Shown here: positions 15,478-36,671 of the stretch, piece after piece
Layout: the number at the start of each line of letters is the position of its first letter
Position numbering within the stretch: the first letter of the stretch is position 1
Assembly (NCBI GenBank): GCA_018821925.1
Contig: JAHJLF010000001.1
Location: 1 to 37,331, forward strand
Source: Candidatus Edwardsbacteria bacterium
Lineage (GTDB): Bacteria > Edwardsbacteria > AC1 > EtOH8
Length of the DNA stretch: 37,331 nt
Direction of reading: 5' to 3'
Program-made: the position numbers and the translations under genes
The notes under the pieces: model-generated
What the model was told of the DNA's origin: nothing
The model's database searches: none
Seen by the model: the letters and a program-made list of their open reading frames with translations, nothing else

Positions 15478-16026
15478 TTAATTAGCGCTTCCGCCCAATA
15501 TGACATTTGACAAAGGCGCTGTTTTGCCAAATCCGCATATCGCATATCCTTTTGCCCCCGGACTGGTGCCATTGTTCAAGTTGCCGCCACCATCGTAACT
15601 GCTATAATACACCACCCCGCTGTTGGCTGCGGCCGGCGGGCCGCCGGGAAGGTTATCCAGGGAAAAGGCTCCAACTTGGAACGGGTTGGCAAACCCGGCA
15701 TGGGGGTTTATCAGCGCCGCCGCCGGGAATGGCGGCACCCTGACTCCCTCGGCAATGGACTGGTCAGTCCCCCCGGGGAATACTGCCGAGATCCTGATTT
15801 CCAGGTTGTCCGGGTACCAACCGTCGGCCGCGGCCGCGAAGCCCTCCACCACTAATTGCATGGTGTGCATGTTTGCTTTGCATGAGGCCTCCTGGGCCCT
15901 GGTCTTCATGCTCAAAAAATTGGGGATCGCAACGGCCGCCAGAATGCCGATGATGACCACCACGATCATCAGCTCTATCAGGGTGAATCCTTTCTGCCAG
16001 GATTTTATTCCTCGGTTTTGAGCCAT
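15478..16026 (-). CDS. type IV pilin-like protein (pilin 2)
   Basis: A 182-residue prepilin with a longer, basic 13-residue leader (MAQNRGIKSWQKG) cut before FTLIELMIVVVIIGILAAVAIPNF; Glu is at mature position 5. The helical segment MKTRAQEASCKANMHTMQLVVEGF closely matches pilin 1, so the two are paralogues. The globular part has Gly/Pro-rich loops (LDNLPGGPPAAANSG, YYSSYDGGGNLNNG) and a late Cys (YAICGFGKTAPL). AAGGA lies 7 bases before the ATG. The gene has the clearest sigma-54 promoter in the locus and so may be the regulated pilin; pilin 1 versus pilin 2 as main subunit is not decidable here. Confidence 0.94.
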   Translation of the reverse strand: MAQNRGIKSWQKGFTLIELMIVVVIIGILAAVAIPNFLSMKTRAQEASCKANMHTMQLVVEGFAAAADGWYPDNLEIRISAVFPGGTDQSIAEGVRVPPFPAAALINPHAGFANPFQVGAFSLDNLPGGPPAAANSGVVYYSSYDGGGNLNNGTSPGAKGYAICGFGKTAPLSNVILGGSAN

Positions 16027-18639: not shown

Positions 18640-19851
18640 TTAGTTGCCGCCCATCAGGGCCGAGGTCATGCTGAAGATAGGCAGGTACATGGCGACCACC
18701 ATGCCGCCGATGCCCAGGCCCAGCACCACCATTATTATCGGCTCCATGGCCGCGGTCAGGCCCTCCACCGCCCCGTCCACCTCCTCGTCGTAGAAGTCGG
18801 CGATTTTGTTGAGCATCTCGTCCAGGCCGCCGGTGGCCTCGCCCACCGCGATCATCTGCACCACCATGGGCGGGAATATCTTCATGGTCTTCAAGGGGGC
18901 CGAAATGGTCTCGCCGCCGCCGATGGACTTGCGGGCCGACATGATGGCGTCCTGCACCACCCGGTTGCCGGCGGTCTTGGCGGTGATCTCCAGGGCGTCC
19001 AGAATGGCCACGCCGCTGGCTAAAAGAGTACCCAAGGTACGGGCGAAACGGGCCACGGCCGATTTCTGCTGGAGACCGCCCAGGATGGGTATTTTAAGCA
19101 TCAGGGTGTCCAGATACAACTGCCCCTTGTCGGTCTTGTACCACCTCTGAAGGGTAATGATGGCGGCAGTTACCACGATTATAATGAGAACGATGTATTT
19201 CTGCAGGAACTTGGACAGCGCCACCACGAACAGGGTGGGGGCCGGCAGCCTGGCGCCCATCTCGGCGAACATCTTTTCAAAGATGGGGATCACGAAGATC
19301 AGCAGTACCGCCGCGGCTCCCACCGCCACGGAGGTCAGGATCACCGGCATGATCATGGCCCTTTTGACCTTGGACACCAGGGCCTCGGCCTTCTCCAGGT
19401 AGATCGCCAGGCGCATCAGGATGTTGTCCAGGATACCGCCGGCCTCGCCGGCCGCCGCCATATTGATATACAGTTCGCTGAACACGTGTTTCTGACGATT
19501 TAAAGCCTCGGCCAGAGTGGAGCCGCCCTCCACATCGGCCTTGATGGTCTCCAGCACCTTCTTGAAGGTGGGGTTCTCTTGCTGCTGGGACTGGATCTCC
19601 AGGCAGGAAACCAGCGGCAGGCCGGCGTTGATCATGGTGGCAAACTGCCTGGTGAAGATCGACAGGTCCTTGTTGCTTACCTTGGGCTGCAGAAAACTGA
19701 GTTTGAGTTCCTTGGGCTTGACCCGCACCGAGGACACTATTATATTTTTCTTGCGCAACGCCTCGATGACTGCGCCTTCGCTTTCGGCAGTCAGCTCTCC
19801 GGAGACCAAACCGGCTTTGGAATCGCGCCCTTTCCAGAGATATAGTGGCAT
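18640..19851 (-). CDS. pilC: type IV pilus inner-membrane platform protein PilC
   Basis: A 403-residue protein of the type II secretion F family: N-terminal soluble ~60 residues, then two copies of the T2SSF domain (about 70-195 and 272-397), each starting with helical LSIFTRQFATMINAGLPLV or VARFARTLGTLLASGVAIL and followed by membrane helices (VILTSVAVGAAAVLLIFVIP, IVLIIIVVTAAIITL, IIMVVLGLGIGGMVVAMYLP). PilC links the cytoplasmic ATPases to the growing pilus base. AAGGAG precedes the ATG; it follows pilT by 60 bases and precedes the hybrid regulator by 20, so all three are probably co-transcribed. Confidence 0.95.
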   Translation of the reverse strand: MPLYLWKGRDSKAGLVSGELTAESEGAVIEALRKKNIIVSSVRVKPKELKLSFLQPKVSNKDLSIFTRQFATMINAGLPLVSCLEIQSQQQENPTFKKVLETIKADVEGGSTLAEALNRQKHVFSELYINMAAAGEAGGILDNILMRLAIYLEKAEALVSKVKRAMIMPVILTSVAVGAAAVLLIFVIPIFEKMFAEMGARLPAPTLFVVALSKFLQKYIVLIIIVVTAAIITLQRWYKTDKGQLYLDTLMLKIPILGGLQQKSAVARFARTLGTLLASGVAILDALEITAKTAGNRVVQDAIMSARKSIGGGETISAPLKTMKIFPPMVVQMIAVGEATGGLDEMLNKIADFYDEEVDGAVEGLTAAMEPIIMVVLGLGIGGMVVAMYLPIFSMTSALMGGN

Positions 19852-19911: not shown

Positions 19912-20982
19912 TCACACTACGGCCTGGCGTTTCTTGATCATCTGGTCCAGTTCCTCCACATTGGATGTATAGTCGAAGGCGGTGTCCAGGGAGATCTTCT
20001 TCTCCAGAAACAGGTTCATCAGCGACTGGTTCATGGTCTGCATGCCGTATTTCTGCCCGGCCTGCATCGAAGAATATATCTGGTGGACCTTGTCGTCGCG
20101 GATCAGGGCTTTGATGGCCGGGGTGCAGACCATGATCTCCAGGCACAGGGCCCGGCCGCCCCGCATCATGGGGATCAGCTGCTGGGTAATCACCCCCTCC
20201 AGCACGAAAGCCAGCTGGGCCCGTACCTGGGACTGCTGGTAGGGCGGAAAGACGTCTACTATTCGGTGGATGGATTCGGCGGCCGAATTGGTGTGCAGGG
20301 TGGCCAGGGTCAGATGGCCGGTCTCGGAGATGTGCAGGGCCGACTCGACGGTCTCCAGGTCCCGCATCTCGCCCACCAGCACCACGTCGGGATCCTGTCT
20401 CAGGGCGTATTTCAGGGCGTTCTTGAAACTCTTGGTGTCCGACTCCAGCTCCCGCTGGTTGATGATGCATTTTTTATGATGATGGATGTACTCGATGGGG
20501 TCCTCGACGGTGATGATGTGCCCCCTCCGTTCGCTGTTAATCTTGTCGATCATGGTGGCCAGGGTGGTGGATTTGCCCGAGCCGGTGGGCCCGGTGACCA
20601 GCACCAGCCCCTTGGGTTTGTCGGCCAGGGCAGCGCAGATGGGCGGCAGGCCCAGGGCCTGGAAGGAGCGGATCTCCCAGGGGATCACCCGCATGGCCAT
20701 GGCCACGCAGCCCCTCTGCAGGAAGATGTTGCCCCGGAAGCGGGAGAGCCCCTGAATGCCGATGGACAGGTCCAGTTCCCGCTCGGTCTCAAAACGTTTC
20801 TTCTGGGTGTCCTTCAGGATGCTATAAGCCAGCTGTTCGGTCATCTGGGGAGTGAGCGGCTCGTGGGAGGTCTGCGTAAGTTCGCCGTCCACCCGGATCA
20901 CCGGAGGGATGCCCACCGTCAGGTGCAGGTCGGTCCCCTTCTTCTGGATCATCTCCTCTAAGAGTTGGGTAAGAGTCAACAT
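19912..20982 (-). CDS. pilT: twitching motility retraction ATPase PilT
   Basis: A 356-residue secretion ATPase of the PilT class: short N-terminal PAS-like domain (GTDLHLTVGIPPVIRVDGEL), Walker A GPTGSGKSTT (about 129-138), Asp box TVEDPIEYIH, Walker B DPDVVLVGEMRDLETVESAL, His box TGHLTLATLHTNSAAESIHRIVD. The C-terminal AIRNLIRE motif of PilT appears as AIKALIRDDKVHQIYS. It lacks the tetracysteine zinc motif of PilB, as expected. It drives pilus depolymerisation. Length is standard. AGGATGGG lies before the ATG. The 346-base gap upstream separates it from the pilB genes. Confidence 0.96.
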   Translation of the reverse strand: MLTLTQLLEEMIQKKGTDLHLTVGIPPVIRVDGELTQTSHEPLTPQMTEQLAYSILKDTQKKRFETERELDLSIGIQGLSRFRGNIFLQRGCVAMAMRVIPWEIRSFQALGLPPICAALADKPKGLVLVTGPTGSGKSTTLATMIDKINSERRGHIITVEDPIEYIHHHKKCIINQRELESDTKSFKNALKYALRQDPDVVLVGEMRDLETVESALHISETGHLTLATLHTNSAAESIHRIVDVFPPYQQSQVRAQLAFVLEGVITQQLIPMMRGGRALCLEIMVCTPAIKALIRDDKVHQIYSSMQAGQKYGMQTMNQSLMNLFLEKKISLDTAFDYTSNVEELDQMIKKRQAVV

Positions 20983-21328: not shown

Positions 21329-23088
21329 CTATCCCTCGGCGGTCTCGCGGAACATCTCCTCCACCGTGGTCAGGCCCTGCTTGACCTTGCCCCAGGCGTC
21401 CATCCGCAGGGTCAGCATGCCCTGCTCCACCGCCTTGGTCCTAATAGAGGTCACCGCCTCCCGGTTCAGTATCTGGTCCCTGATTTCGGGAGAGATGGGC
21501 ATCACCTCGTAGAGACCCACCCGGCCCTTGTATCCGGTATTGTTGCAGATGGGGCAGCCCTTGCCCTTGTAATGGTAACCCCGGCCACCTCCTCGGCGTT
21601 GAACCCCATGTCGATCAGGGACTGGGGATTGATCTGGAATGGCTCCTTGCAAGCCTTGCATATCCGGCGGACCAGGCGCTGGGCCTGGATCAGCACGGTC
21701 GAGGAGGCCACCAAAAACGGTTCGATCCCCATGTCGATCAGACGGCTGACCGACGACGGGGCATCGTTGGTATGCAGGGTGGACAGCACCAGATGTCCGG
21801 TCAGGGCGGCCTTGACCGCAACGGCGGCGGTGGGACCGTCGCGGATCTCGCCCAGCATGATGATGTTGGGAGCCTGCCGCAGCATGGCCCTAAGGGCCAT
21901 GTCAAAGGTAAAGCCGATGCCCAGCTCGGCCTGAACCTGATTGACCCCTTTCAGGTTATATTCGATGGGATCCTCCACCGTCAGGATGTGCCTGTCCGGC
22001 GTGTTCAGCTGGGAAAGAGCGGAATACAGGGTGGTGGTCTTTCCCGAACCGGTGGGGCCGGTAATCAGGACTATGCCGTAGGGGGCATGGATGGCTTTCA
22101 TGAAATTCTTCAGGGCCAGCTCGGTAAAACCGAAGTTGGCCAGGTCCAGCGTCAGGGATCCGGCATCCAGGATACGCATCACCACCTTCTCCCCGAACAA
22201 TACCGGCAGGGTGGACACCCGGAGGTCTATCTTCTTGTTGAGCACCTTGATGGCGATCCGGCCGTCCTGAGGCTTGCGGCGCTCGGTGACGTCCAGCTTG
22301 GCCATGATCTTGATACGGGAGACCAGCGGGGCCTTCATCCGCATGGGCGGCTCCATCAGGGTCTGCAACACGCCGTCCTGCCTTAATCTGATCCTGAAGA
22401 CCTTCTCATAGGGCTCCACATGGATGTCCGAGGCCCCCCGGCGGACCGCCTCGGTCATGATGTAGTTGACCATTTTGACCACCGGGGTGGAGGAGCCGGC
22501 CTGCTGGGCGTCGGCCAGATCCTCGTCCTGCTCTTCATCCACCATCTCCATCTCGATGTCGTCCCCCAGCCCCTCCAGGGCCGAGTCCTCAGGCAGGCTC
22601 TCGATGGCCTCGTCCTTAATCTGGCTCATCTGGCCGCCGGATGCGATTACCTGAACATCCTTGCCCAGCGGATAGTGCTGTTCCAGAAGCTTCTTGACAG
22701 CCGAATAGCCGGCCACCACCGGCTTGACATCCAGGCCGGTGAGAAATTTGATGTCCTCCAGAGCAAAAATATCGGAGGGATCGATCATGGCCAGAGTCAG
22801 AGCCCGGCCCAGGCGTTTTATCGGGATCACCATGAATTTATTGGCGATGTCCGGCCGGATCAGCTTTATCACCGCCGGCTCCACCTGGAAATTGCTCAGG
22901 TCCATGGCCGGGACATTGAACTGCCGGGACATGAACTGCATGGCCACATTCTCGGTGACCATCCCCATCCGGACCATGGTGGCAGCCAGCGGCTCGTTGT
23001 TGCTCTTCTGCTCCAGGGTTGCCTGGTCGTACTGGGACTTGGTCAGGAGCCCCATTTTCAAAAGCATGTCGGCAATATTTTGCGGCAT
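21329..23088 (-). CDS. PilB/GspE-type extension ATPase, third tandem copy, one-base frameshift near 21571
   Basis: Two overlapping frames make one ATPase of about 586 residues. The first (21502-23088) carries a diverged MshEN-like N-domain, RGASDIHVEPYEKVFRIR, Walker A GPTGSGKTTT, Asp box TVEDPIEYNL, Walker B NIIMLGEIRD, His box LSTLHTNDAPSSVSRLIDMG and the first zinc pair CKAC. At about 21571 a single base is missing: inserting one A in the plus-strand CTTGTAATGG (one T in minus-strand CATTACAAG) restores VTIYKGKGCPICNNTGYKGR with the second zinc pair and the complete C-terminus to 21329. So it is a recent frameshift, a sequencing error, or an inactive copy. The N-domain lacks the LG doublets found in the two sister copies, so c-di-GMP binding is doubtful. 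Confidence 0.88.
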
Positions 23089-23123: not shown

Positions 23124-24851
23124 TTAATCTGCGACGGCCACGGTTTCCTTGATGACCTCTTCAATGGTGGTTATCCCGTTTCGGACCTTAAGGATGCCAT
23201 CCATCCGCAGGGTGGCCATCCCTTCTTTCACGGCCTGGGCCTCGATCTTGAAGGTGGGGGCCCGTTCCAGTATCAGGTCCCTGATAGCCGGGCTGACTGG
23301 CAGAATCTCGGCCAGGCCGATCCGGCCCTTATATCCGGTATTGCGGCACTCCGAACAGCCCCGCCCCCGGAAGGCGGTGAATCCGGCTATATCCACCTTG
23401 CTGCCCAGGAATTCACGCAGCATCTTTTCCTCCGGCTTATACTGCTCCTTGCAGTAGGAGCATATCTTGCGGACCAGCCGCTGAGATTCCACCAGCAGCA
23501 GCGAAGAGGAGATCATGAAAGGCTCCACCCCCATGTCCACCAGCCGGGTAATGGTCAACGAGGCGCTGTTGGTATGGACGGTGGACAGCACCAGATGGCC
23601 GGTGAGCGAGGACCGGATGGCAATCTCGGCCGTCTGCCGGTCGCGGATCTCTCCCACCATGATGATGTTGGGATCCTGCCTCAAGAAGGCCTTGAGAGCG
23701 GCGGTAAAAGTGGTGCCGCCTTCCTCGCGCACCGCCACCTGATTGACCCCCATAAGACTGTACTCCACCGGCTCCTCGGCGGTCATGATATTGGTGTCCG
23801 GATGGTTGATGGACTCCAGGCAGGCATACATGGTGGTGGTCTTCCCGGAGCCGGTGGGCCCGGTGACCAGCACGATCCCAAAGGGCGTCTGGATCGCCTT
23901 CAGCAGGAACTTCAGCGGCTCCGGCTCGAACCCCAGGGTGGGCAGGTCGAATGACACCGCGCTGCGGTCCAGAATACGCAGGGCTACCTTCTCCCCGAAG
24001 GCGGTGGGGATGATGGATACCCGGATGTCTATCGGCTTTCCCTGGATGTTCATCCGCAGACGGCCGTCCTGGGGAAAACGCTTTTCCTCGATTTTTAATT
24101 TGGAGATGATCTTTATCCGGGCCGCGATGGAGCTCTTCATCCGCAGGGGGGGCGACATCACTTCGTGCAGCACGCCGTAGACCGACATCCGGACCCGGAT
24201 CTCCTTCTCATAGGGCTCGATGTGGATGTCGGTGGCATTGCGCTTGACCGCCTCGGCTATCAGGCCGTTAACCAGCTTGGCCGCCGGGCTGCTCTCGATG
24301 GCCGCGGCCATCTCCGAGGCGGAATCGCCGCCCTCCTCCTGCTGCTCCTCCAGTATCTCCAGATCTCCGGCATCCCCGTCGCCATCGGCCTCATCCATGG
24401 CCTTCATCACATCCTCCAGCATCCCGGCCGACCCGTATTGCTTGTCGATGGCCGACCAGATGGCGGCCTCGGAGGCTATCACCGGGCGGACCTCAAAACC
24501 GGTGGAGAATTTTATGTCCTCCATGGCCAGGATGTCGTTGGGATTGACCATGGCCACTGTCACGCTCCGGCCCAGGCGCGACAGGGGGACCAGCCCGTAT
24601 TTCTGGGCTATATGAGCCGGTATCAATTTGAGAACGGGCTCGTCGATTTTATAATCGTTCAGGTTGACCGAGGGGACATTGAATTGCTTGCTCAAGAAAG
24701 CCACCACTTCGTCCTCGGTGACAAAGCCCATTTTGACCAGCAGGGAGCCCAGCCTCTGGCCCGAGGTCTGCTGTTCTTTAAGGGCCTGCTCCAACTGCTC
24801 CGGGCTGATCATTCCGGCCTTGAGGAGCATATCGCCAACTTTTAACGCCAT
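23124..24851 (-). CDS. PilB/GspE-type extension ATPase, second tandem copy
   Basis: A 575-residue AAA-like secretion ATPase. Residues 1-60 form an MshEN-type domain (KVGDMLLKAGMISPEQLEQAL, QRLGSLLVKMGFVTEDEVVAFLSKQFNVPSVNL), the family known to bind cyclic di-GMP. An acidic linker (about 155-185, rich in D and E) follows. The ATPase core has RNATDIHIEPYEK, Walker A GPTGSGKTTTMYA, an unusual Asp box TAEEPVEYS, Walker B NIIMVGEIRDRQTAE, His box LSTVHTNSASLTITRLVDMG and two zinc pairs CSYC and CSEC. It powers pilus extension. It is 35 bases from each neighbour, so the three ATPases are one transcription unit. There is no good ribosome site. Confidence 0.95.
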   Translation of the reverse strand: MALKVGDMLLKAGMISPEQLEQALKEQQTSGQRLGSLLVKMGFVTEDEVVAFLSKQFNVPSVNLNDYKIDEPVLKLIPAHIAQKYGLVPLSRLGRSVTVAMVNPNDILAMEDIKFSTGFEVRPVIASEAAIWSAIDKQYGSAGMLEDVMKAMDEADGDGDAGDLEILEEQQEEGGDSASEMAAAIESSPAAKLVNGLIAEAVKRNATDIHIEPYEKEIRVRMSVYGVLHEVMSPPLRMKSSIAARIKIISKLKIEEKRFPQDGRLRMNIQGKPIDIRVSIIPTAFGEKVALRILDRSAVSFDLPTLGFEPEPLKFLLKAIQTPFGIVLVTGPTGSGKTTTMYACLESINHPDTNIMTAEEPVEYSLMGVNQVAVREEGGTTFTAALKAFLRQDPNIIMVGEIRDRQTAEIAIRSSLTGHLVLSTVHTNSASLTITRLVDMGVEPFMISSSLLLVESQRLVRKICSYCKEQYKPEEKMLREFLGSKVDIAGFTAFRGRGCSECRNTGYKGRIGLAEILPVSPAIRDLILERAPTFKIEAQAVKEGMATLRMDGILKVRNGITTIEEVIKETVAVAD

Positions 24852-24886: not shown

Positions 24887-26581
24887 TCAATCCGAGGCTG
24901 TCTCCACGATGGCCGCCTCCATGGTGGTGATGCCTTTTCTGACCTTATCCAGGGCGTCATCCCGCAGGGTCTTCATCCCCATCTTGACCGCCATATCCCT
25001 GATCTCATCGGTGGAGGCCCGGGATACTATCAGCCTTCTTATCTCAGGGCCAATCGACATGATCTCGAACACCCCTACCCGGCCTTTGTAGCCGGTATTG
25101 TTGCACTCTAAGCAGCCCTTGCCCTTGAACAGCTCCACTCCCTGGAAGCTGGCGGGATCGACCCCCATTTTGAGCATCTCCTCCGGCGATATTTTTTCCG
25201 GCTCTTTGCATTTTGTGCATATCCGCCTGACCAGGCGTTGGGCCTCGATCAGGTTTATCGTGGCGGCTATCAGGAACGGCGGGATCTCCATATCCAGCAG
25301 GCGGTTCAGCGAACTGGGGGCGTCGTTGGTATGCAGGGTAGACAATACCAAATGTCCGGTCATGGCCGCGGTCATGGCTATTTCTCCGGTCTCCCGGTCC
25401 CGGATCTCCCCCACCAGAACTATATTGGGATCCTGTCGTAAAAAGGCTTTTAAGGCCTTGGCAAAAGTGTAGCCGATTTCGGGCCTAACGTTCACCTGGT
25501 TAATGCCGACGATGTCGTATTCCACCGGATCTTCAGCGGTGACGATGTTGACGCTGGGCTTGTTCAAACGGGAGATGCCGGAATAAAGAGTGCGGGTTTT
25601 TCCGGAGCCGGTGGGCCCGGTGACTAATATCATTCCGGTGGGCCGGGCCAGGGCTTTCAGGAAATCGTCCAGGGCCTTGCCCTCGATGCCCAGCTGGGTC
25701 AGGTCGCCGCCCAGGCCGCTCTGCTCTAAAATCCGGATGACGATCTTTTCCCCGTATTTTATTGGCATGGTGGAAACTCTCATATCCACCGTCCTATCGG
25801 ATAATTTAACGGAAAAGCGACCGTCCTGGGGAAGGCGGCGTTCTGTTAAATTAAGTTTGGAAAGAACCTTGATGCGCGAGGCCAATGCCGCCGAGATCCG
25901 GCGGGGCGGAGACATGGTCTCCTGCAGGACCCCGTCTATGCGGTAGCGCACCCTGAGGATTTTTTCGTAGGGCTCTATATGAATGTCCGACGCCCCGCGC
26001 TTGATGGCGTCGATGACAATGCTGTTGACTAATTTCACCACCGGGGTGGATTCGATATCCGCCTGGCTGGCCACCTCCTCAATATCCTTGTCCACCAGCT
26101 CCATGTCCTCGGCGGCGATCTCCTGCTCCACCGATTTCAAGGCCGCGGCCCGGGTGGTGCTGCCGTAATATTTGTCCAAAGCCTTCTCCAGCGAGGTCTC
26201 GGCGCATACCACCGGTTTGACCTCCATCCCGGTGAGAAAAGAGATTTGCTCCATGATGAACACATCGGCGGCATTGGACATGGCCAGAAACAGGGTCCGC
26301 CCGGTCTTTTTGATCGGCATCACCTGGAATTTCTGGGCTATTTCCGGGGGGATAAGTTTCAGGACCAGGGGATCCAGTTCGGCGGTGGAAAGATTCACCG
26401 TAGGAAGGTTGAGTTGCTTGCCCAGGAATTGAGTGATGGCATCTTCGGTCATAAACCCAAGCTTTATCAGGCTGGAGCCCAGCTTGGCTCCGGAGCTTTT
26501 TTGCTCGGCCAAGGCCTTGTCCAACTGATCTTTGCTGATCAGGCCGGACTGCACCAGCATGTCGCCTAATTTCAAACCCAT
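24887..26581 (-). CDS. PilB/GspE-type extension ATPase, first tandem copy
   Basis: Start chosen at ATG 26581 because GAGGGAG lies just before it and MGLKLGDMLV is the normal MshEN start; an upstream in-frame ATG at 26626 would add 15 unrelated residues. The 564-residue protein has an N-terminal MshEN-type domain (GDMLVQSGLISKDQLDKAL, AKLGSSLIKLGFMTEDAITQFLGKQLNLPTVNL), RGASDIHIEPYEK, Walker A GPTGSGKTRTLYS, Asp box TAEDPVEYD, Walker B NIVLVGEIRDRETGE, His box LSTLHTNDAPSSLNRLLDM and zinc pairs CTKC and CLEC. It lies 79 bases after the ComEA-like gene and first of three tandem PilB paralogues. Confidence 0.95.
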   Translation of the reverse strand: MGLKLGDMLVQSGLISKDQLDKALAEQKSSGAKLGSSLIKLGFMTEDAITQFLGKQLNLPTVNLSTAELDPLVLKLIPPEIAQKFQVMPIKKTGRTLFLAMSNAADVFIMEQISFLTGMEVKPVVCAETSLEKALDKYYGSTTRAAALKSVEQEIAAEDMELVDKDIEEVASQADIESTPVVKLVNSIVIDAIKRGASDIHIEPYEKILRVRYRIDGVLQETMSPPRRISAALASRIKVLSKLNLTERRLPQDGRFSVKLSDRTVDMRVSTMPIKYGEKIVIRILEQSGLGGDLTQLGIEGKALDDFLKALARPTGMILVTGPTGSGKTRTLYSGISRLNKPSVNIVTAEDPVEYDIVGINQVNVRPEIGYTFAKALKAFLRQDPNIVLVGEIRDRETGEIAMTAAMTGHLVLSTLHTNDAPSSLNRLLDMEIPPFLIAATINLIEAQRLVRRICTKCKEPEKISPEEMLKMGVDPASFQGVELFKGKGCLECNNTGYKGRVGVFEIMSIGPEIRRLIVSRASTDEIRDMAVKMGMKTLRDDALDKVRKGITTMEAAIVETASD

Positions 26582-26660
26582 AGCATCTCCCTCAATTTGA
26601 AATACTATAGCATATGCAAGTTGCAAATGTCAAGCAATTTGTCTTTTAACTTGATGGCCC

Positions 26661-27095
26661 TTAATGGTCTACAAATACATGCTCCCGGAGCCGGTTGAAT
26701 TTTTTATGGCCGATGCCTTTGACCTTCATAAGGTCCTCGACTTTTCGGAAATCTCCGGATTCCTTCCTGAAATCAATAATTTTCTTGGCCATCGCCGGGC
26801 CGATGGCCGGAAGTTTCTCCAGGTCCCGAGGCCCGGCCCGGTTGAGGTCTATCTTTTCGGCCGGAATCTTTTTGACAGGCCATTGATTTTTTGCCGCAGC
26901 TTCTGGGCCTGCCGGAAATGACCCCGGCCGTTCGATGACCTGGGGCAATTCCGGCCCGCCGTATTTAAGCTCCGGAGCAGAGACCGGATGTCTTTTCTTG
27001 TAGAGCAGCACGGCATTGCCCAGCGCCAAGGCCACAATAAAAAAAATTATAACCTTTTTTTCATCCGGTGTTAACCCAAACATCTTTCCCACCAA
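26661..27095 (-). CDS. ComEA-like helix-hairpin-helix protein with membrane anchor
   Basis: A 144-residue protein: membrane segment at about 14-31 (VIIFFIVALALGNAVLLY), a Pro-rich linker, then the ComEA DNA-binding domain at 80-142: KIDLNRAGPRDLEKLPAIGPAMAKKIIDFRK and VEDLMKVKGIGHKKFNRLREHV, i.e. two helix-hairpin-helix motifs with GIG/AIGP loops. ComEA proteins bind incoming double-stranded DNA on the outer face of the inner membrane during type IV pilus-assisted uptake. It lies 7 bases after sprA and 79 before the pilB genes, linking DNA uptake to the pilus locus. No ComEC is visible. Confidence 0.9.
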   Translation of the reverse strand: MVGKMFGLTPDEKKVIIFFIVALALGNAVLLYKKRHPVSAPELKYGGPELPQVIERPGSFPAGPEAAAKNQWPVKKIPAEKIDLNRAGPRDLEKLPAIGPAMAKKIIDFRKESGDFRKVEDLMKVKGIGHKKFNRLREHVFVDH

Positions 27096-27102
27096 TCAAG
27101 CG

Positions 27103-30100
27103 TTAAAACTTGATCTCCACCGAGGCATTGAAGGCCGTCCGGGTGCGGTCATTGTTCTTGGCTATCTTGTCCCTGGTGAAGCTGAAGTCAACTGAGGCCG
27201 ACCCGGTGATGCTCCGGGTGAAATTATAGCTGGCGCTGGGCGACATGGCAAATTCGTGGACCAGCGAAGTGTAGCCCAGTTCGGTTATCTTTTCGTAAGC
27301 GGTCTCGGTGAGCAGCTGTTGCAGGGCGGAGATCTCCCCTTCCGGGATCTCATTCCTGGCGCCAATGATGGAATAGCTGAACTGCGATTGCAGGCTGAGC
27401 TCGCTGTTGAATTTTATGCGCTTTTTGCCCAGCTTCCACAGGTTAAGCTTGAAACCCTTGGGGGCGCTGAATGAGTACGAAACGGAACTGCTGGTTTTAA
27501 AAGTCTGGTTGTAAGTGTCCCGCCCCTGGCCGATAACATCGTCGTTCTTCTGGCTGCTGTAATCAAAGGCAAGGTTGGTGCTGATGCTTTTCTTCCATCT
27601 CGCGGACATCGAAAGTATCGGGCTGAAATTATTCCTGGTGGCGATCCTTACCAGCGGCTTCTGGTTCTCCCAGGTCTTGTCGATCGTCCGGCTGTAAGAG
27701 GATGTCAGGCTGGCGCCGGTCATGGCCTTTTTCCACAGGCCCCATCTCTCCAGGCCGGCCAGGGTGGCCCTCAGCTCCGGCCAGGTGACGCTGCGGGTAG
27801 AGTTCCGGGCATCACCCACGATGATGGTATCATCGCTGCGGCGAAGGGAAAGACTCAGCGACAGCCTCATCAGATCCAGGCTGGTGCCCAGGGAGTATGT
27901 GTTGCGGATGGTATTGCGGTCGGTATTGGCCTGGAAATACCTGGGGATATCCGTGACCTGCTGCTTCAGACCGAACTGGTATAACATATCGGGACGCCTC
28001 ATCAGCAGGTTCGAGGCCTGGCTGGAGTTATCGCGGCTGAAGGAAGCCTGCACCCCTCCCAGTTTGTTGAACAGATAATCAATCTTTGTCACCAGCCATC
28101 TAGGGCTTCCCACCTCGGCCGAATCGTCCTTGGCCTTGTTGCGTAAACCGGTTACTTTGGCCAGCCATTTACCCACATCAAGGTTGCCGTTCAGAGACAG
28201 GCTGTTGGAATTGCTGACGTTCAGCAGGTGGAAGGTGTCCACGATGCTGGGCTTGGCAGCCAGGCTGTGGCCCTCGTTGTATTGGGTGGAAAAGGCCAGA
28301 CTGGGCTTGATGACCTTCAGCCAGTTAAGAGTGGTGCTGTAGTTCACCTTTTGGGAACGGGATATCTCGGACCCCAGGTCGAACTTTCTGGCCCATTCCC
28401 CCTGAAAGAACCGGTCCTTCAAATTCCGGGCGGTGTTGAAGGAGTAACTCAGGGAATTCATCAACTGCCATGAGAGATCGCCCTGGCCGCTTCGGGTATC
28501 TCCACTGCCGTTATTGTTCTCCACTCCGGTAAGCTTGTCCCAATACCATCTCTTAACCTGGTTGCGGGACCAACCTAGGCCGAAAGAGCTGGGCAGATAA
28601 TAGAATTGCAATCCCGGCCAGGTTTTAAAGGATTTTTTTTCTCCGGAGCTCCAGCCGTAGCCCAAACTCAGACCGCTGGAGGTGGTGCTGTCCGATGTCG
28701 TCCGGCTGTCGGAGACGCTGCGGCTCCAATTGAACCGGGGTGAGATCCGGTCGATGGTAAGGTTGGTCAGCCACCATTGGGTCATCTTCTTGGAGAAGGA
28801 AACATCAAACCCGGCATTCTGGGAGAAGGCCATCTGGGCCCGGCTCTCCTCCTCGGTAAGCCTGATATCGTCAGCCCCGTATTCACTATACTGCTGGGAT
28901 TCGCCGTATCTAAAGCCGATGGGAAGGGTCAGCCCCAGCCGATCCAGATACAATTTATGGGCATTGAAACTGCCGCTCAGGCTGTAATTTATACTCTTAA
29001 CCCCGCTCCCAGTGCCGCTGGAATTGACCCCGTACCAGTGGCTGCCGGTCTTGTTGTATGAAGCATTGAGCGATAAAAGATCGGCAAAGTTGATCGCCAC
29101 GCTGGAGGTGATGGCGGTGCCCCGGTCCCGGCGGACATCGTCCAACCGCAGTTCGTCGAACCAGACCTCATCGCTGAATATCCTGCCGGTATCGTCATTG
29201 AAAACGCACAATTCGATACTGTTTAGGCTGATCAGACTGGGATTCCCTTTCAGGGAATAGTTGCCGCTGGTCCTTATCTTATTTGTGGTATCCGTCGGGA
29301 ACGGCAGCTTTTTCAGGTCGCTGAAGGTTAGAACATCCATGATCATTTCCTGCCAGCCGGAAGACAACCCTTGCTTGTATTGATAGTAACTGTTCGGGTC
29401 ATTGCCGATCAGCCGCAGGCCGAACGATTTCTTAACATGGGTGGTGTCGTTGCTGTGGGCCCATATCTTCAGGGTTTTATACCCGGTGTAATTGTTCTCC
29501 TTATCCCGCAGTATTTTTCCGGCTGTGACATAATGCCCGGAGCGCAGGCTGTCGATATTTAAGCACAGGCTCTGCTCGAACTCCACCCTCCCCTGGTCGT
29601 CCTTCTGTTCGGTATTGGGGGGCAGGGTATAATCGGAATTATCCCGGTTGTTTTTTACCTCTATGGTAAACTTTTCGGAGGGATCGACGGCATCGAGGGT
29701 ATCGCTCGAAAACACACCCTCCTCCTGCCAGCGGTTGCCGCTGACCTCTATCATGGCTATCTCAAAAGCGGTGCTGGCCGGACAGCTGTCCACCCAGATC
29801 CGGGCATACTGAATGGAACTCCAGCCCAGCTGTGGGCCCACCGGTTGGACGGTATCCAGCAGGGCCGACAGCTGGTGCCAGCCGTATTGGTTGGCCTGGC
29901 TTTGAGAGAGGTCGAAGCGGAAGCTGTAATAATTATTACCCAGCTGGGGCACATCCAGAGAATCCAGGCCGTTCATTTTAAGGTCCTCGGTGTCGTAGTA
30001 ACCGTTGCGCTCGGTCCCGTTTATTTTGCTGTAGTCCGGTTTATTTATGTCAACGACATAATCATCGGTCCCGTCGTCGCCCGATGAAGCTAAATAAGTG

Positions 30101-32772
30101 CTGTCATTCCCCTTTACCCGATCCATACCGATGTCGGTATGATCGGTATATACCGGCTCCCGGTTGAGGTTCAGCGGTTCGCAATCCACTTTCCCGTTTG
30201 GAGGATGCAAACCCTTCTTGGTCCACCAAACCTGATCCTCGTCAATGTTCCGGCCAATGTCTATGTGAACGATCCCTTTCCCGTTTAAGCCCCTTATCCA
30301 GAGGTTCAGCAGTTTGCTCTGGCTTAAGTCCAGCCCGGTTTTGCTTAACAGCTGGGTAACCCCGGCCCAGGAGTTCAGAGTGTCCTGATGTCCGGCTTCA
30401 TACCTCAAGAACAATGTCCTGATGGTTTCGTTCCTCTGGGTCTCATCGGTAATTGCGGGATTGATCTCCTTCATGGTGACCTGGGTGGTGGGGTTGTACC
30501 AATAAAATGTTCTGGCCAGTAATGTATCGGCCCTGATCAGATTGGTATCGGCCTTAGTCGGAGGGACGCTGGAGCGCACCCAGGCCGAGCGGCTCAGGTT
30601 GAATTCGTCGGACACCTTGCTGCCGTCCATATCGTCAATGTACACCTGGCCCTTGGTATTGGGGTTGGGAAAGTTGCCGGCGATCTCGCCGGTCAGCTTA
30701 AAGTTGGATGGGGCCTCGGTCTCCACCAGCGGCAGGGCATTGGTCCAGCTGGTAAGGAAATCGGGGGCGGCCTGGAAGCTTCCGTCCAGACCGGCCACGA
30801 TTATCCGGCGGGGCTCCTCGCCCAGCCGGGGCTTTTCATCCGGGGTCTGCTCGCTGCGATACAGCCAGGTGCCGCCCAGCTGCCCGCTATCCCCGAATTT
30901 GTAGATGCCCCTTAGGCCGGCCAGGGTCTTGGATCCCAAAGCAAACGCTGGCAGGTATTGATACTCTATGTTAAGGGCGGCGTTGCTGTTCTGTAATTCG
31001 TTTTTGACCCGGTCGTTAAAGGTGACGGTGCCCATATCGTAGTCCACCGTATATTCGCTGGATGAGACCGGAGATCCGTTCAAGGTGACACTGACCGTTC
31101 CCTCCAGCAGGCGCCCCGGGGCATTCAGGGCATACATTGCCACTGTGGATTTGTAGGTGATTATAAAGCGGTATTTGGCGGAATAATTGGTCAAATTCTT
31201 CACCCGGTAAATATCAGGGCAGCTATCCGGCAAAGCCGAATCCAGAAAAGGCATATCTTGAGGGAAGAAGAAATAGCCCTCCTCCTGATTTATATAATTA
31301 TCATACAGAGCCCCGGCATTCTCCCAGCGCAGAAGCTCCAGGAATGTTTTCTGGCTGTCAGGATCATTCTCCAACCATTCATTTTCTTTGCGGTATTGCA
31401 GTTTTATGGTCAGGGTGGAAAAATCAATGCCCCGTCCGTTTAACGAATAATAATTTCGCTTTTCGTAGTTCCAGCAATAGCCGTTAATGGTATCGGCGGG
31501 CTGGCAGTTGGCCGGCTTCACCAGCATCAGGGTATCCGAATTATCGAAATCATGCTTGCTGGGATAATAGCTGCCATTTTTGGTCTTATAGGCCACCCCC
31601 AGCACCGATTGGTCATACATGCCGTTGGTCAGAATTATCCGCCCGGTGATGGGATCGTCCAGGATGAAATCGGTGATCTCGGTCTTGGCATCCATCCTGG
31701 TCTGCTCGTAAAGAGTGTCCCAGGGGATCCCCTTAAAATCCCTCCAACTCCTGTCTTTTAGGCGATGAGGGGCAGCCGTGTTCGGAGTATACTCATTCCC
31801 GATGAATACTTTTATGGCCTCAATAGCATCGCCCCCCGCCAACCCGCCGGGGATGATCTCATATACCGTATACTGCATGAATTCATTGTCCAAATGGGTG
31901 ACAGAAGACGCTACGTTCGAGCCGGAGAAGGAGCTGGTCTGACTCTGGCCCTCGTCCTTGCTGGCGATGGCCGTCAGCTCGAAGCCCCCCAGCCGGGCCA
32001 CCCCCTTAAGCCCGAACAGGCCCTTGTGAACCGTGGTCAGCCCGCCCACCAGAGAGGAGCCGCTTAAGGAAAATTCGGTGTCCCCGGCCTCCAGGCTCTG
32101 CAGGATCTCGTCCTCCTTGCCTTCATACCGCAGGCGGACCTTGCTGCGCTTGTCAGGATCGGCCTCGCTATCGTAATCTATCAGCACATGCACCCGGTCG
32201 CCGATCACCCCCTCCAGGTTCACCCGTTGCTCCTGCTTGATGTTTATCTTGTTGTCATCGGTGGTGGCATTGGCATCCAGGTCCCGGCCGATCTGGTTAT
32301 AAGTGGTCCGGTCGTATCCGGCGGTTATCTTCTGGTTGCCGCTGACCTTTATCTGGGCCCCGGAGCCGAAGGCCTTGCCCAGCCCCGGGATGGGTATCTG
32401 GATATCGGGGATCAGCCCCTCCCCGGTCCTCTCCTGGGGCGGTTTTGACAAAAATGCATAATTATTCCTTGACCAGGCGCTGTCCGTTCCCTCAATTCGC
32501 AATTTCTCCAAAAAGGCGCTCAAGCTGTAATACCTGATCCCGAAGGTCTGCTGGGAAACAAGCTCCTGCTCTATCATCAGCCCCAGCCGGTAGTCTATGC
32601 TGTAGCTGTTGGTCCGGGCGTTTTTCCGGAAGTTTTCAGCATTGTAATCCGCCGTGATATCCTCCAATGGCCCGAATTCCTGGGCCTGTCCATTCCCGGC
32701 GATGGTCAGCGCCAACGCCGCCAGGATGACAGCCAAAGATAGCGGATATATTTTGGATTTTCTATGGAGCAT
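27103..32772 (-). CDS. sprA: SprA-family giant outer-membrane translocon protein (type 9 secretion)
   Basis: A 1889-residue protein with a signal peptide (MLHRKSKIYPLSLAVILAAL, cleavage near AQA-QEF about 30), long beta-rich body with many alternating Ser/Tyr/Trp strands and a C-terminal Phe (NASVEIKF) as in outer-membrane barrels. SprA hallmarks: DRVHVLIDYDSEADPDKRSK and the LQSLEAGDTEFSLSGSSLVG segment in the N-domain, and KGQVYIDDMDGSKVSDEF near residue 710 (family YIDDFEG). SprA forms the 36-strand pore of T9SS in Bacteroidota, where it is about 2300-2500 residues; this one is some 500 shorter. The start at 32772 has no ribosome site. It is followed at 7 bases by comEA. Other T9SS genes (gldKLMN, porV) are not in the window. 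Confidence 0.85.
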   Translation of the reverse strand: MLHRKSKIYPLSLAVILAALALTIAGNGQAQEFGPLEDITADYNAENFRKNARTNSYSIDYRLGLMIEQELVSQQTFGIRYYSLSAFLEKLRIEGTDSAWSRNNYAFLSKPPQERTGEGLIPDIQIPIPGLGKAFGSGAQIKVSGNQKITAGYDRTTYNQIGRDLDANATTDDNKINIKQEQRVNLEGVIGDRVHVLIDYDSEADPDKRSKVRLRYEGKEDEILQSLEAGDTEFSLSGSSLVGGLTTVHKGLFGLKGVARLGGFELTAIASKDEGQSQTSSFSGSNVASSVTHLDNEFMQYTVYEIIPGGLAGGDAIEAIKVFIGNEYTPNTAAPHRLKDRSWRDFKGIPWDTLYEQTRMDAKTEITDFILDDPITGRIILTNGMYDQSVLGVAYKTKNGSYYPSKHDFDNSDTLMLVKPANCQPADTINGYCWNYEKRNYYSLNGRGIDFSTLTIKLQYRKENEWLENDPDSQKTFLELLRWENAGALYDNYINQEEGYFFFPQDMPFLDSALPDSCPDIYRVKNLTNYSAKYRFIITYKSTVAMYALNAPGRLLEGTVSVTLNGSPVSSSEYTVDYDMGTVTFNDRVKNELQNSNAALNIEYQYLPAFALGSKTLAGLRGIYKFGDSGQLGGTWLYRSEQTPDEKPRLGEEPRRIIVAGLDGSFQAAPDFLTSWTNALPLVETEAPSNFKLTGEIAGNFPNPNTKGQVYIDDMDGSKVSDEFNLSRSAWVRSSVPPTKADTNLIRADTLLARTFYWYNPTTQVTMKEINPAITDETQRNETIRTLFLRYEAGHQDTLNSWAGVTQLLSKTGLDLSQSKLLNLWIRGLNGKGIVHIDIGRNIDEDQVWWTKKGLHPPNGKVDCEPLNLNREPVYTDHTDIGMDRVKGNDSTYLASSGDDGTDDYVVDINKPDYSKINGTERNGYYDTEDLKMNGLDSLDVPQLGNNYYSFRFDLSQSQANQYGWHQLSALLDTVQPVGPQLGWSSIQYARIWVDSCPASTAFEIAMIEVSGNRWQEEGVFSSDTLDAVDPSEKFTIEVKNNRDNSDYTLPPNTEQKDDQGRVEFEQSLCLNIDSLRSGHYVTAGKILRDKENNYTGYKTLKIWAHSNDTTHVKKSFGLRLIGNDPNSYYQYKQGLSSGWQEMIMDVLTFSDLKKLPFPTDTTNKIRTSGNYSLKGNPSLISLNSIELCVFNDDTGRIFSDEVWFDELRLDDVRRDRGTAITSSVAINFADLLSLNASYNKTGSHWYGVNSSGTGSGVKSINYSLSGSFNAHKLYLDRLGLTLPIGFRYGESQQYSEYGADDIRLTEEESRAQMAFSQNAGFDVSFSKKMTQWWLTNLTIDRISPRFNWSRSVSDSRTTSDSTTSSGLSLGYGWSSGEKKSFKTWPGLQFYYLPSSFGLGWSRNQVKRWYWDKLTGVENNNGSGDTRSGQGDLSWQLMNSLSYSFNTARNLKDRFFQGEWARKFDLGSEISRSQKVNYSTTLNWLKVIKPSLAFSTQYNEGHSLAAKPSIVDTFHLLNVSNSNSLSLNGNLDVGKWLAKVTGLRNKAKDDSAEVGSPRWLVTKIDYLFNKLGGVQASFSRDNSSQASNLLMRRPDMLYQFGLKQQVTDIPRYFQANTDRNTIRNTYSLGTSLDLMRLSLSLSLRRSDDTIIVGDARNSTRSVTWPELRATLAGLERWGLWKKAMTGASLTSSYSRTIDKTWENQKPLVRIATRNNFSPILSMSARWKKSISTNLAFDYSSQKNDDVIGQGRDTYNQTFKTSSSVSYSFSAPKGFKLNLWKLGKKRIKFNSELSLQSQFSYSIIGARNEIPEGEISALQQLLTETAYEKITELGYTSLVHEFAMSPSASYNFTRSITGSASVDFSFTRDKIAKNNDRTRTAFNASVEIKF

Positions 32773-32849
32773 ATGGTTAGTTTATCACAGCTTATGTTTC
32801 AACTTCAATAAAAATTCTTGCTTTTTCTGCAAATACCGTATAACATTAT
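32773..32849. promoter_or_regulatory. divergent promoter region of sprA and lptF
   Basis: Only 77 bases separate the two start codons. Minus strand: TTGAAG-18-TAAACT (plus 32779-32808) would start transcription at about the sprA ATG. Plus strand: TTGCTT-17-TAACAT (32818-32846) would start at about the lptF ATG. Neither gene has a Shine-Dalgarno site, so leaderless mRNAs are possible. Confidence 0.45.
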
Positions 32850-34088
32850 ATGTCTATGAAGATAATCGACCGGTATCTTATAAAGGGCCATGCCCTTCCG
32901 TTTTTTCTGGCCCTGACTGTGCTGACCTTCGTTCTGCTGATGGACCGGCTGTTCGAGCTTATCAATATGATCATCCAGAAAAAAGTGCCGATCCTGATCG
33001 TCAGCAAGGTATTCTTCCTGAGCCTCCCCTACATGCTGACCATGACCATCCCCATGGCGGTGCTGGTGGCAGTGATCATGACTTACGGGCGGCTGGCCCA
33101 GGACAACGAACTGACGGCCATAAAATCCAGCGGGACCCCCTTTATCAGGCTTATCATCGCTCCCTTTCTGGCCGGGATCATCCTGACCGCCGGGCTGTAT
33201 TTCTTCAACGATCGCCTGATGCCCGAGACCAACCATATGGTCAAGAACCTGCTGATGGACATCTCCGAGACCAAGCCCACCCTGCAGCTCAAGGAGAACA
33301 TCTTCATTACCGATTTCCCCGATTACAATATCCTGATCCGGCGGATCGATCCCAAGACCTCGGAGCTGGGCAATGTCACCATCTACGAACAGAAGGGAAA
33401 CTCCCAGCCCCGGACCATCCTGGCATCCAAGGGGCGGCTGATGGTAACCCCCCAGGCCGCCTCGCTGAGGCTGGAACTGATGGACGGGGAGATCCACCAG
33501 CTGGACCCCGAGGACAAGACCCGCTACCACCGGATCAGTTTCAAAAAACATATTTTATATCTGCCGATGGACCCCCAGATCCAGCATCAGGTGCGGACCT
33601 ACCGCAGCGACCGGGAGATGTCCTCGGGCATGATGCAGCAGGTGATCGCCAATATCCGGAAGGAACTGAAGCCCCTGCAGGCCCAGCTGGCCGACAGCTC
33701 CAGTCTCCCGCCCCCCCGTTTGAGCCAGTTGTCCTCGGAGGTCCACAACCGCATATTGGAGATCCGGCGCTACCAGGTGGAGATCCAGAAAAAGATGGCC
33801 ATCCCGGCGGCCTGCCTGGTGTTCATCCTGATCGGGGCCCCCCTGGGAATCATCACCCGCAAGGGCAACCTGGGGGTCAGCTTCGGGCTGTCGCTGGGTT
33901 TCTTTGTCCTGTATTATATAGCCCTGATCGGCGGCGAGGAGCTGGCCGACCGGCAGATCCTTTCCCCGGTGCTGGCCATGTGGGCCGCCAACATGGTGCT
34001 GGGAGCCTGCGGCCTGATCCTGCTGTTCTGGAAGAATTATGAATTCAGCTTTAAAAAGAACCGTTATGCCGATAAAAATACTGGATAA
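32850..34088 (+). CDS. lptF: LPS export permease LptF
   Basis: A 412-residue YjgP/YjgQ family protein: three membrane segments at the N-terminus (ALPFFLALTVLTFVLLMDRL, LPYMLTMTIPMAVLVAVIMTYG, LIIAPFLAGIILTAGLYFF), a periplasmic beta-jellyroll domain (about 125-235), a helical segment around 270-315, then three more membrane segments (ACLVFILIGAPLGIITRKG, GLSLGFFVLYYIALIGGEELA, MWAANMVLGACGLILLF). With LptG and LptB it extracts lipopolysaccharide from the inner membrane for transport to the surface. The start could be ATG 32850 or 32856 (MKIIDRYL, the usual family start); there is no ribosome site for either. It overlaps lptG. Confidence 0.92.
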   Translation: MSMKIIDRYLIKGHALPFFLALTVLTFVLLMDRLFELINMIIQKKVPILIVSKVFFLSLPYMLTMTIPMAVLVAVIMTYGRLAQDNELTAIKSSGTPFIRLIIAPFLAGIILTAGLYFFNDRLMPETNHMVKNLLMDISETKPTLQLKENIFITDFPDYNILIRRIDPKTSELGNVTIYEQKGNSQPRTILASKGRLMVTPQAASLRLELMDGEIHQLDPEDKTRYHRISFKKHILYLPMDPQIQHQVRTYRSDREMSSGMMQQVIANIRKELKPLQAQLADSSSLPPPRLSQLSSEVHNRILEIRRYQVEIQKKMAIPAACLVFILIGAPLGIITRKGNLGVSFGLSLGFFVLYYIALIGGEELADRQILSPVLAMWAANMVLGACGLILLFWKNYEFSFKKNRYADKNTG

Positions 34089-35154
34089 ATACCTCTCCCG
34101 GGAATTCCTGAAATCGCTGATCTTTTCGCAGACCGCCTTCGTGCTGATCTTCGTTCTGGTGGATATCTTCGAAAAGCTGGACATGTTCATCGATAACCGG
34201 GCGCCCTATCATCTGGTGGCCTTGTTTTACATCTATCAGATACCGTATATAATGATCCTGACCCTGCCGGTGGCCATGCTGCTGGCCAGTATGGCCACTA
34301 TCAGTCAGATGGCCCGCCACCACGAGATCGTGGCCATGAAAGCCGCCGGGATGAGCCTCTACCGGATATTCGCCCCCCTGTTCATATTGGGCCTGCTGAT
34401 AAGCCTTGCGGTGATGGCTGTCAGCGAAACTATCGTCCCGTTCACCAACCAGAAAAAAGGCAATCTGGAAAGGATCCGGATAAGGAAGCAGATATCCCAG
34501 GAGCCCAAGATCAGATTCAACCTGCTATACGACGGCAGTGACGGCCGCCAGTTTTTTATTAAAAGATACAATGTGGAAAAAGCGGTGATGGATTCGGTGT
34601 CCATATTCCAGGTCGACCAGCAGAACCGGATATTGCAACGGGTGGACGCGGCCAGAGGGACCTGGGCCGGAGACGCCTGGCTGCTGGAGAAAGTCATAAT
34701 CCGGAAGTTCCGTCCGGACGGGACGGAACTTTCCGACAGCCTCCCGCAATTAAAACTCACCGGCTATGAGGAGGTCCCGGCATCGTTTTCCAAACGCGAA
34801 CTGCTGCCCGATGAGATGGGTTTCTTTGAACTGCGCCAGTTCATTGACCGTTTAAAGAGGTCCGGAAATAAGGTTCAACAATCGGTGGTGGACCTGTATC
34901 TCAAGTTATCATTCCCCTTCGCCAATTTCATCATCCTGCTGTTCGGCCTTCCCCTGCTGTCCAATTCGCGCAAAGGCAGCACGGCCTCGGGCTTTGCCAT
35001 ATCGTTGTTGACCTGCTTTGTTTTTTGGGGATTGCTGCAGACCGGACGGGCCCTGGGGCACAACGCGACGCTTTCGCCCATCCTGGCAGCCTGGCTGCCC
35101 AATATTATATTCGGGGCCATAGGAGCCTTCCTGCTCTACCGGGCTCCCAAATAA
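34066..35154 (+). CDS. lptG: LPS export permease LptG
   Basis: The second YjgP/YjgQ family subunit, partner of LptF. I start it at ATG 34066 (MPIKILDKYLSREFLKSLIFSQ, the usual family start, 362 aa); an ATG at 34039 in the same frame would add nine residues (MNSALKRTV). It overlaps the end of lptF in another frame by 23 bases. Membrane segments lie near 20-37, 55-80, 105-123 and, after a periplasmic domain, 275-297, 310-330 and 338-358 (FANFIILLFGLPLLSNSRKG, AISLLTCFVFWGLLQTGRALG, AWLPNIIFGAIGAFLLYRAP). It forms a heterodimer with LptF in the Lpt export machine; LptB, LptA and LptC are outside the window. Confidence 0.92.
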   Translation: MPIKILDKYLSREFLKSLIFSQTAFVLIFVLVDIFEKLDMFIDNRAPYHLVALFYIYQIPYIMILTLPVAMLLASMATISQMARHHEIVAMKAAGMSLYRIFAPLFILGLLISLAVMAVSETIVPFTNQKKGNLERIRIRKQISQEPKIRFNLLYDGSDGRQFFIKRYNVEKAVMDSVSIFQVDQQNRILQRVDAARGTWAGDAWLLEKVIIRKFRPDGTELSDSLPQLKLTGYEEVPASFSKRELLPDEMGFFELRQFIDRLKRSGNKVQQSVVDLYLKLSFPFANFIILLFGLPLLSNSRKGSTASGFAISLLTCFVFWGLLQTGRALGHNATLSPILAAWLPNIIFGAIGAFLLYRAPK

Positions 35155-35328: not shown

Positions 35329-35401
35329 AATGGTAACAAAAGGGATCCCAAAAAAGTTAAATCTCGTTAACCCTGTCTAAATGGTTTCCGGCCTGCCCGT
35401 T

Positions 35402-36658
<1,257 letters not shown>

Positions 36659-36671
36659 TTATTTCTCCTAA

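Follow-up and report, generated by a model that had tools for sequence, protein, structure and literature searches.

The window analysed here, by which we mean the whole stretch of DNA at its full length, is one entire contig of 37331 bases from a genome of the phylum Candidatus Edwardsbacteria (2.44 Mb, 99.4% complete, 95 contigs). The gene of interest within it is sprA, which encodes a protein related to the outer-membrane translocon of the type IX secretion system (T9SS) and which stands at the head of a group of genes for DNA uptake and type IV pili. On the minus strand, sprA is followed by comEA, three pilB genes, genes of the pilT and pilC types, a gene for a PilS/PilR-like fusion protein and two prepilin genes, and the lptF-lptG pair lies upstream of sprA in divergent orientation. 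The features are as follows (positions are those of the window; lengths are in amino acids, aa):

27103..32772, minus strand: sprA (Sov), T9SS-type outer-membrane translocon, first gene of the unit, 1889 aa (TIGR04189, SprA_N, phmmer to 6h3i/6h3j; Foldseek with a weak model)
26661..27083, minus strand: comEA, membrane-anchored helix-hairpin-helix DNA-binding protein, 140 aa (HHH_3, 1.4e-20)
24887..26626, minus strand: pilB1, type IV pilus extension ATPase (TIGR02538, 699 bits, cut-off 675.65; Walker A and two CxxC motifs)
23124..24851, minus strand: pilB2, PilB paralogue (TIGR02538, 670 bits, slightly under the cut-off of 675.65)
21332..23088, minus strand: pilB3, frameshifted PilB paralogue (528-aa open reading frame at 21502-23088, second frame onward to 21332)
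19912..20982, minus strand: pilT-like retraction ATPase (T2SSE, 6e-49; syntenic in relatives)
18640..19851, minus strand: pilC, platform protein (T2SSF, 1e-60)
16445..18619, minus strand: PilS/PilR-like regulator with PilS-type membrane domain, PAS, sigma-54 AAA+ and Fis helix-turn-helix domains (Pfam)
15478..16026, minus strand: prepilin-like protein (N_methyl, 6e-9)
14483..15040, minus strand: prepilin-like protein (N_methyl, 6e-10)
32773..32849, no strand: divergent intergenic region lptF/sprA of 77 bases, putative control region of the unit (coordinates and sequence)
32850..34088, plus strand: lptF, conserved divergent neighbour (LptF_LptG, 4e-86)
34039..35154, plus strand: lptG (TIGR04408, 243 bits, cut-off 240)

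The identification of the first gene as sprA, which was made in the initial annotation of this DNA, is confirmed by several lines of evidence. Its product matches the NCBIfam equivalog for SprA (TIGR04189) in four stretches with a total of 351.1 bits (cut-off 200), it contains a SprA_N domain (48.9 bits), and phmmer aligns it in three collinear blocks (about 3e-28) with the SprA protein of Flavobacterium johnsoniae (6h3i/6h3j). Over the aligned core it is 23–25% identical to SprA from the Bacteroidota, and its nearest relatives, from Edwardsbacteria and UBP2 genomes, are 44–89% identical to it. For the 36-strand barrel expected of the family, a predicted model of residues 120–1310 is weak (predicted local distance difference test score, pLDDT, of 50.5); its top ranks in Foldseek were the T9SS translocons 8gl6, 8gl8, 6h3i, and 6h3j (E 1e-39 to 2e-25), a ranking which, at a pLDDT of about 50, only corroborates the assignment. 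Judged by its sequence, this product is a true SprA/Sov homologue. It had also been regarded as short; although 1889 aa is indeed near the low end of the range, lengths at the 60 loci measured outside the phylum extend from 1862 to 2623 aa, and by this comparison a SprA of such a size is ordinary outside the Bacteroidota.

The sorting-domain cargo that a secretory role for SprA would entail is abundant in the genome of the host, where 63 matches to TIGR04183 were observed (63–93 per Edwardsbacteria genome). Matches to the PorV family number 15 in the host and 15–20 per Edwardsbacteria genome; a PorV_fam match of 218 bits (cut-off 90) is under the cut-off of the narrower PorV equivalog. The PorU sortase is found on contig C46 (NF033707 equivalog, 608.8 bits, cut-off 420), where its neighbours are a PorV-family protein of 824 aa and an M6-like protein that bears a sorting domain. 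This cluster (L074:509-16999) also encodes a POTRA/Omp85 protein and a protein of 1165 aa in which short segments resemble SprA (profile 595–653), and PorV-like and SprA-like matches of this kind recur together in several Edwardsbacteria. A lack of T9SS core genes and of cargo, which according to the initial annotation would speak against secretion, is not what the genome shows.

In contrast to these components, GldL and GldM were not found. Nothing scored above the profile cut-off for GldL in any of the 10 Edwardsbacteria genomes and no match for GldM was seen in them at E 0.1, the GldM search being confined to this phylum; these motor negatives rest on the GldL and GldM profiles, and no search was aimed at GldK, GldN, or SprE/PorW. 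A weak GldL match on contig C74 was set aside as an artefact, as it is on the opposite strand to a called open reading frame, passes a stop, and stands beside a phenylalanyl-tRNA synthetase gene (named by eye). Only two MotA/ExbB-family genes are present in the host genome, one TolQ-like and the other an ExbB within an ExbB-ExbD-ExbD-TonB cluster. The latter gene, on C43, was considered as a stand-in for GldL next to a GldK-like lipoprotein and was rejected, since its neighbours (a PstS-like protein, a tetratricopeptide repeat lipoprotein, two ExbD, TonB, and a cyclophilin-type prolyl isomerase) are those of a TonB system. Because GldL and GldM were not found, we refer to the host system as T9SS-type and not as a canonical T9SS; the earlier reading of the locus as a T9SS appears sound as regards PorU, the PorV family, and the cargo, but not as regards this motor.

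Passages in two papers describe the T9SS as confined to the Bacteroidetes (PMC7906972, PMC7463736), other authors assign it to the Fibrobacteres-Chlorobi-Bacteroidetes (FCB) superphylum (PMC8754138, PMC11205867), and a further paper (PMC11285876) names FCB phyla in which it "may also be present". The host shares with the Bacteroidota system (SprA/Sov, PorV, PorU, GldKLMN; 6h3i, 8gl6, 8gl8) the SprA and PorU equivalogs, the PorV family, and many cargo proteins with Type A sorting domains. However, it differs from it by the lack of detected GldL and GldM, by a SprA of 1889 aa vs. about 2400, and in that its sprA shares an operon with comEA and the pilB genes. No report joining SprA, type IX secretion, and ComEA was found in the open literature, to which the search was limited and in which earlier reports are possible.

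The intergenic gaps from sprA to pilB3 are 19, 34, 35, and 35 bases, with comEA counted from its ATG. The first of these had been given as 7 bases, a value that corresponds to an upstream TTG start, but in relatives the alignment begins only with the ATG at 27083 (MFGLTPDEKK), and this start and the N-terminal anchor that follows are conserved, including in two other phyla. Based upon these alignments, comEA most likely starts at the ATG, and hence its product is of 140 aa and the gap after sprA is of 19 bases. It was correctly noted that comEA leads into three pilB genes, as all three are real, but pilB3 is frameshifted here: tblastn with an intact 589-aa homologue recovers two frames that overlap at 21550–21574, and the gene is intact in four relatives. 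The frameshift could be a sequencing error. The 77 bases between lptF and sprA are likely, from their position and sequence, to be the control region of the sprA unit.

The gene order around sprA is well conserved within the phylum. SprA is present in all 10 genomes, which represent four genera, and the divergent lptGF pair is retained in every one whose contig reaches that side. Where the contig continues, sprA is in all cases followed by comEA, and comEA is followed by pilB with a single exception (G006, L037). In one genome (G003), a gene for a protein of 1429 aa that carries a T9SS sorting domain (L034:5491-9780) stands between pilB1 and pilB2. This order is maintained between Edwardsbacteria whose SprA proteins are only 42–46% identical.

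A scan of named contigs gave five Edwardsbacteria loci and otherwise only loci from the Bacteroidota, and other phyla were therefore examined in a domain-wide sample of 386 genomes, 97 of which contain SprA above the cut-off. The outside neighbourhoods are from genomes that share only the domain with the host and comprise 79 loci with sprA, 69 of them with at least 1.2 kb downstream. In 17 of these 69 testable loci, belonging to 13 families, comEA is located within 1.1 kb downstream of sprA on the same strand, and it was found nowhere else in the sprA flanks of these loci; by our own arithmetic, one comEA placed randomly in a 3-Mb genome would fall there with a chance of less than 1 in 1000. 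A pilB gene lies downstream of sprA in five outside genomes (G070, G111, G249, G341, and G377), and five distant genomes again show the order sprA-comEA-pilB-pilT-pilC or sprA-pilB-pilB-pilT-pilC. In G070 and G111 the arrangement is sprA-cyclase-comEA-pilB-pilT-pilC, and in G341 it is the same without the cyclase. Additionally, lptF is divergent from sprA in 24 of the 79 loci.

In a tree of 82 SprA sequences (FastTree, midpoint root), the presence of the comEA link, scored for 74 loci, required nine changes as compared to a mean of 19 with shuffled labels. Loci with the link occur on either side of this root, and the same cluster is seen in G111, the sister of the Edwardsbacteria (support 0.918). 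As the order is kept across the phylum and is recurrent in other phyla, the linkage is ancient and not accidental, and the latter possibility, which the initial annotation had raised in case relatives should prove to be arranged differently, is not borne out. The distribution fits an old arrangement that has been lost many times, and on these comparisons the linkage is genuine, of long standing, and recurrent.

A protein of the M28 family is encoded directly downstream of sprA in 31 of the 79 outside loci (L191-L258; e.g., L204:8447-9346). For the protein of L204, the best solved relative is the Bacteroidota-type glutamine cyclotransferase 6qro (2e-56), and hence we call it glutaminyl-cyclase-like. 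The T9SS and the pyroglutamate Q-rule are known to co-occur in the Bacteroidetes (PMC5837995), whereas in these other phyla sprA and the glutaminyl-cyclase-like gene are neighbours.

The lack of a detected GldL extends to other phyla. Of their 80 SprA-bearing genomes, only G212 (190 bits) and G342 (147 bits) have GldL above the cut-off, and these two, which also have the highest SprA scores of the sample, are presumably Bacteroidota. A PilB/GspE-type ATPase is present in 71 of the 78 genomes without GldL and absent from both of those with it. This complementary pattern is suggestive, but there are only two GldL positives, PilB is common, and seven SprA-bearing genomes (G062, G088, G121, G206, G258, G290, and G329; 92–100% complete) have neither GldL nor PilB. 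A PilQ-type secretin is present in nine of the 10 Edwardsbacteria genomes, encoded elsewhere than in the pilus cluster, and the idea of SprA as the pore of the pilus was rejected on this ground. The remaining genome, G001, lacks both the secretin gene and an ExbB-like gene; in G002 and G003 a single contig carries both, about 27–29 kb from each other, and their joint loss in G001 is thus likely an assembly gap. Given that the pilus is served by a secretin of its own and that seven genomes have neither GldL nor PilB, pili are not an obligatory motor for SprA. The removal of cargo and carrier from SprA is reported to require energy from the GldLM chain (PMC10994853), and a system without GldLM thus needs another source, for which an ExbB-ExbD-ExbD-TonB or TolQ-type system may rank above the pilus.

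ComEC is found in all 10 Edwardsbacteria genomes and, because of this, comEA probably acts together with the pilus in the customary route of uptake; there is nothing to connect SprA itself to DNA. ComEC-type proteins are common in bacteria and are weak evidence of transformability. As in known ComEA/ComEC uptake systems, the helix-hairpin-helix protein has an N-terminal anchor and ComEC is available, but in the host comEA is apart from comEC, behind sprA. The downstream genes share with type IVa pilus clusters (pilB-pilT-pilC, pilS/R, PilQ) a PilB above the cut-off, PilT- and PilC-type genes, prepilins, and a secretin elsewhere in the genome, but they are headed by sprA and comEA, they include three pilB paralogues, and PilS and PilR are fused.

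Taken by a modest preference as the best account of these observations, the locus would encode a T9SS-type exporter that has no recognisable GldLM motor and is expressed jointly with pili and DNA uptake in an inherited neighbourhood. SprA would be the outer-membrane translocon; Sec-exported proteins with C-terminal sorting domains would pass out through it on carriers of the PorV family and be cleaved and attached by PorU, a route suggested by homology. In view of the observed gaps and order, sprA is predicted to head a single transcript with comEA and the pilB genes, by means of which the exporter would be produced together with pili and DNA uptake. The neighbourhood would descend from a distant ancestor and would have been kept since both machines build the surface, not since the pilus drives SprA; the energy for cargo release may come from the ExbB-ExbD-ExbD-TonB cluster, from Tol-Pal, or from a motor diverged past recognition. 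Because the gaps are short and the operon is retained over large divergence, co-expression, one of the two suggestions of the initial annotation, is well supported and appears to be the best-supported meaning of the linkage. The other, a joint action of SprA with the pilus or with the machinery for DNA uptake, is not favoured, in view of the pilus secretin and the seven genomes noted above.

Several observations weigh against this account of a co-expressed exporter. In G006 (L037), comEA is followed not by pilB but by genes for sorting-domain proteins, one of them an FG-GAP protein, and the comEA link is missing from 52 of the 74 scored tree loci, which indicates that the coupling is dispensable. 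Further, rimP-nusA(-infB) is found behind sprA in 13 outside loci (L206, L207, L224, L230, L232, L236, L237, L239-L241, L244, L245, and L258) and never together with comEA in the 79 loci, and thus conserved sprA surroundings need not imply a shared function. Lastly, a divergent GldLM could have slipped past the profiles.

A less probable, although serious, alternative is that the order has no functional meaning and that sprA, lptFG, ahcY, comEA, and the pilus genes are part of an ancestral envelope and housekeeping neighbourhood, without interaction even at the level of expression. The glutaminyl-cyclase-like (31 loci) and rimP-nusA-infB (13 loci) contexts downstream of sprA are equally conserved, and many lineages have no comEA link. 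Against this alternative, the genes in Edwardsbacteria are closely spaced and constant in orientation, the link to comEA persists across 13 families in other phyla, and the sprA-pil order recurs in five distant genomes. It is rather improbable that the host has an ordinary T9SS, in which GldL and GldM have diverged past the profiles and the linkage alone is unusual. The profiles were trained on Bacteroidota, and SprA itself has only 23–25% identity to its counterparts there. However, SprA, PorU, and the PorV family pass curated cut-offs at this same distance, where GldL and GldM give nothing, the GldL-like match in Edwardsbacteria is antisense, and the two MotA/ExbB-family genes are explained by Tol and TonB, even if that search might miss a GldL.

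Direct mechanical coupling, in which PilB-type ATPases with the pilus platform, or a pseudopilus, would replace GldLM in powering the release of SprA cargo, is unproven and in our view quite unlikely. The missing GldLM, the three PilB genes directly behind sprA-comEA, and the distribution of PilB among genomes with and without GldL are in its favour, but PilB is common in Gram-negative bacteria, two GldL positives are too few to correlate, seven genomes have neither protein, and the pilus possesses its own secretin. The broader proposal that SprA outside the Bacteroidota is generally not driven by GldLM, with pilus ATPases and platform powering cargo release in the sprA-comEA-pilB lineages, is equally doubtful. 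The pore of SprA is very wide in solved structures (6h3i), and comEA is its recurring neighbour with ComEC present, but it is highly improbable that SprA is an outer-membrane DNA-uptake pore working with ComEA, as PorU, PorV, and dozens of sorting-domain proteins account for it as a protein exporter, the PilQ-type secretin is the known port for DNA, and many SprA loci have no comEA.

Some further features of the window may be noted. No kinase or receiver domain was matched in Pfam for the PilS/PilR-like protein (16445–18619), which is perhaps a one-component, membrane-bound sigma-54 activator. Two long minus-strand open reading frames upstream of sprA (32805–34190) are antisense to lptF and have no family match. 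A plus-strand open frame of 471 aa (35381–36796) is antisense to ahcY and relatives align there only through ahcY, which makes it a trap for gene calling.

The T9SS is usually seen as confined to the Bacteroidetes or the FCB group and as powered by GldLM, whereas here a translocon, sortase, carriers, and cargo are present without a recognisable motor. That SprA so widely occurs apart from any recognisable GldL motor, an absence that rests on profile searches, seems to us more surprising than the linkage: with GldL missing from 78 of the 80 SprA-bearing genomes of other phyla, translocon and motor would have been separated in evolution. The question of what energises SprA thereby becomes testable outside the Bacteroidota, and the conserved sprA-comEA-pilus link provides concrete candidates together with a gene order that is likely to be ancestral.

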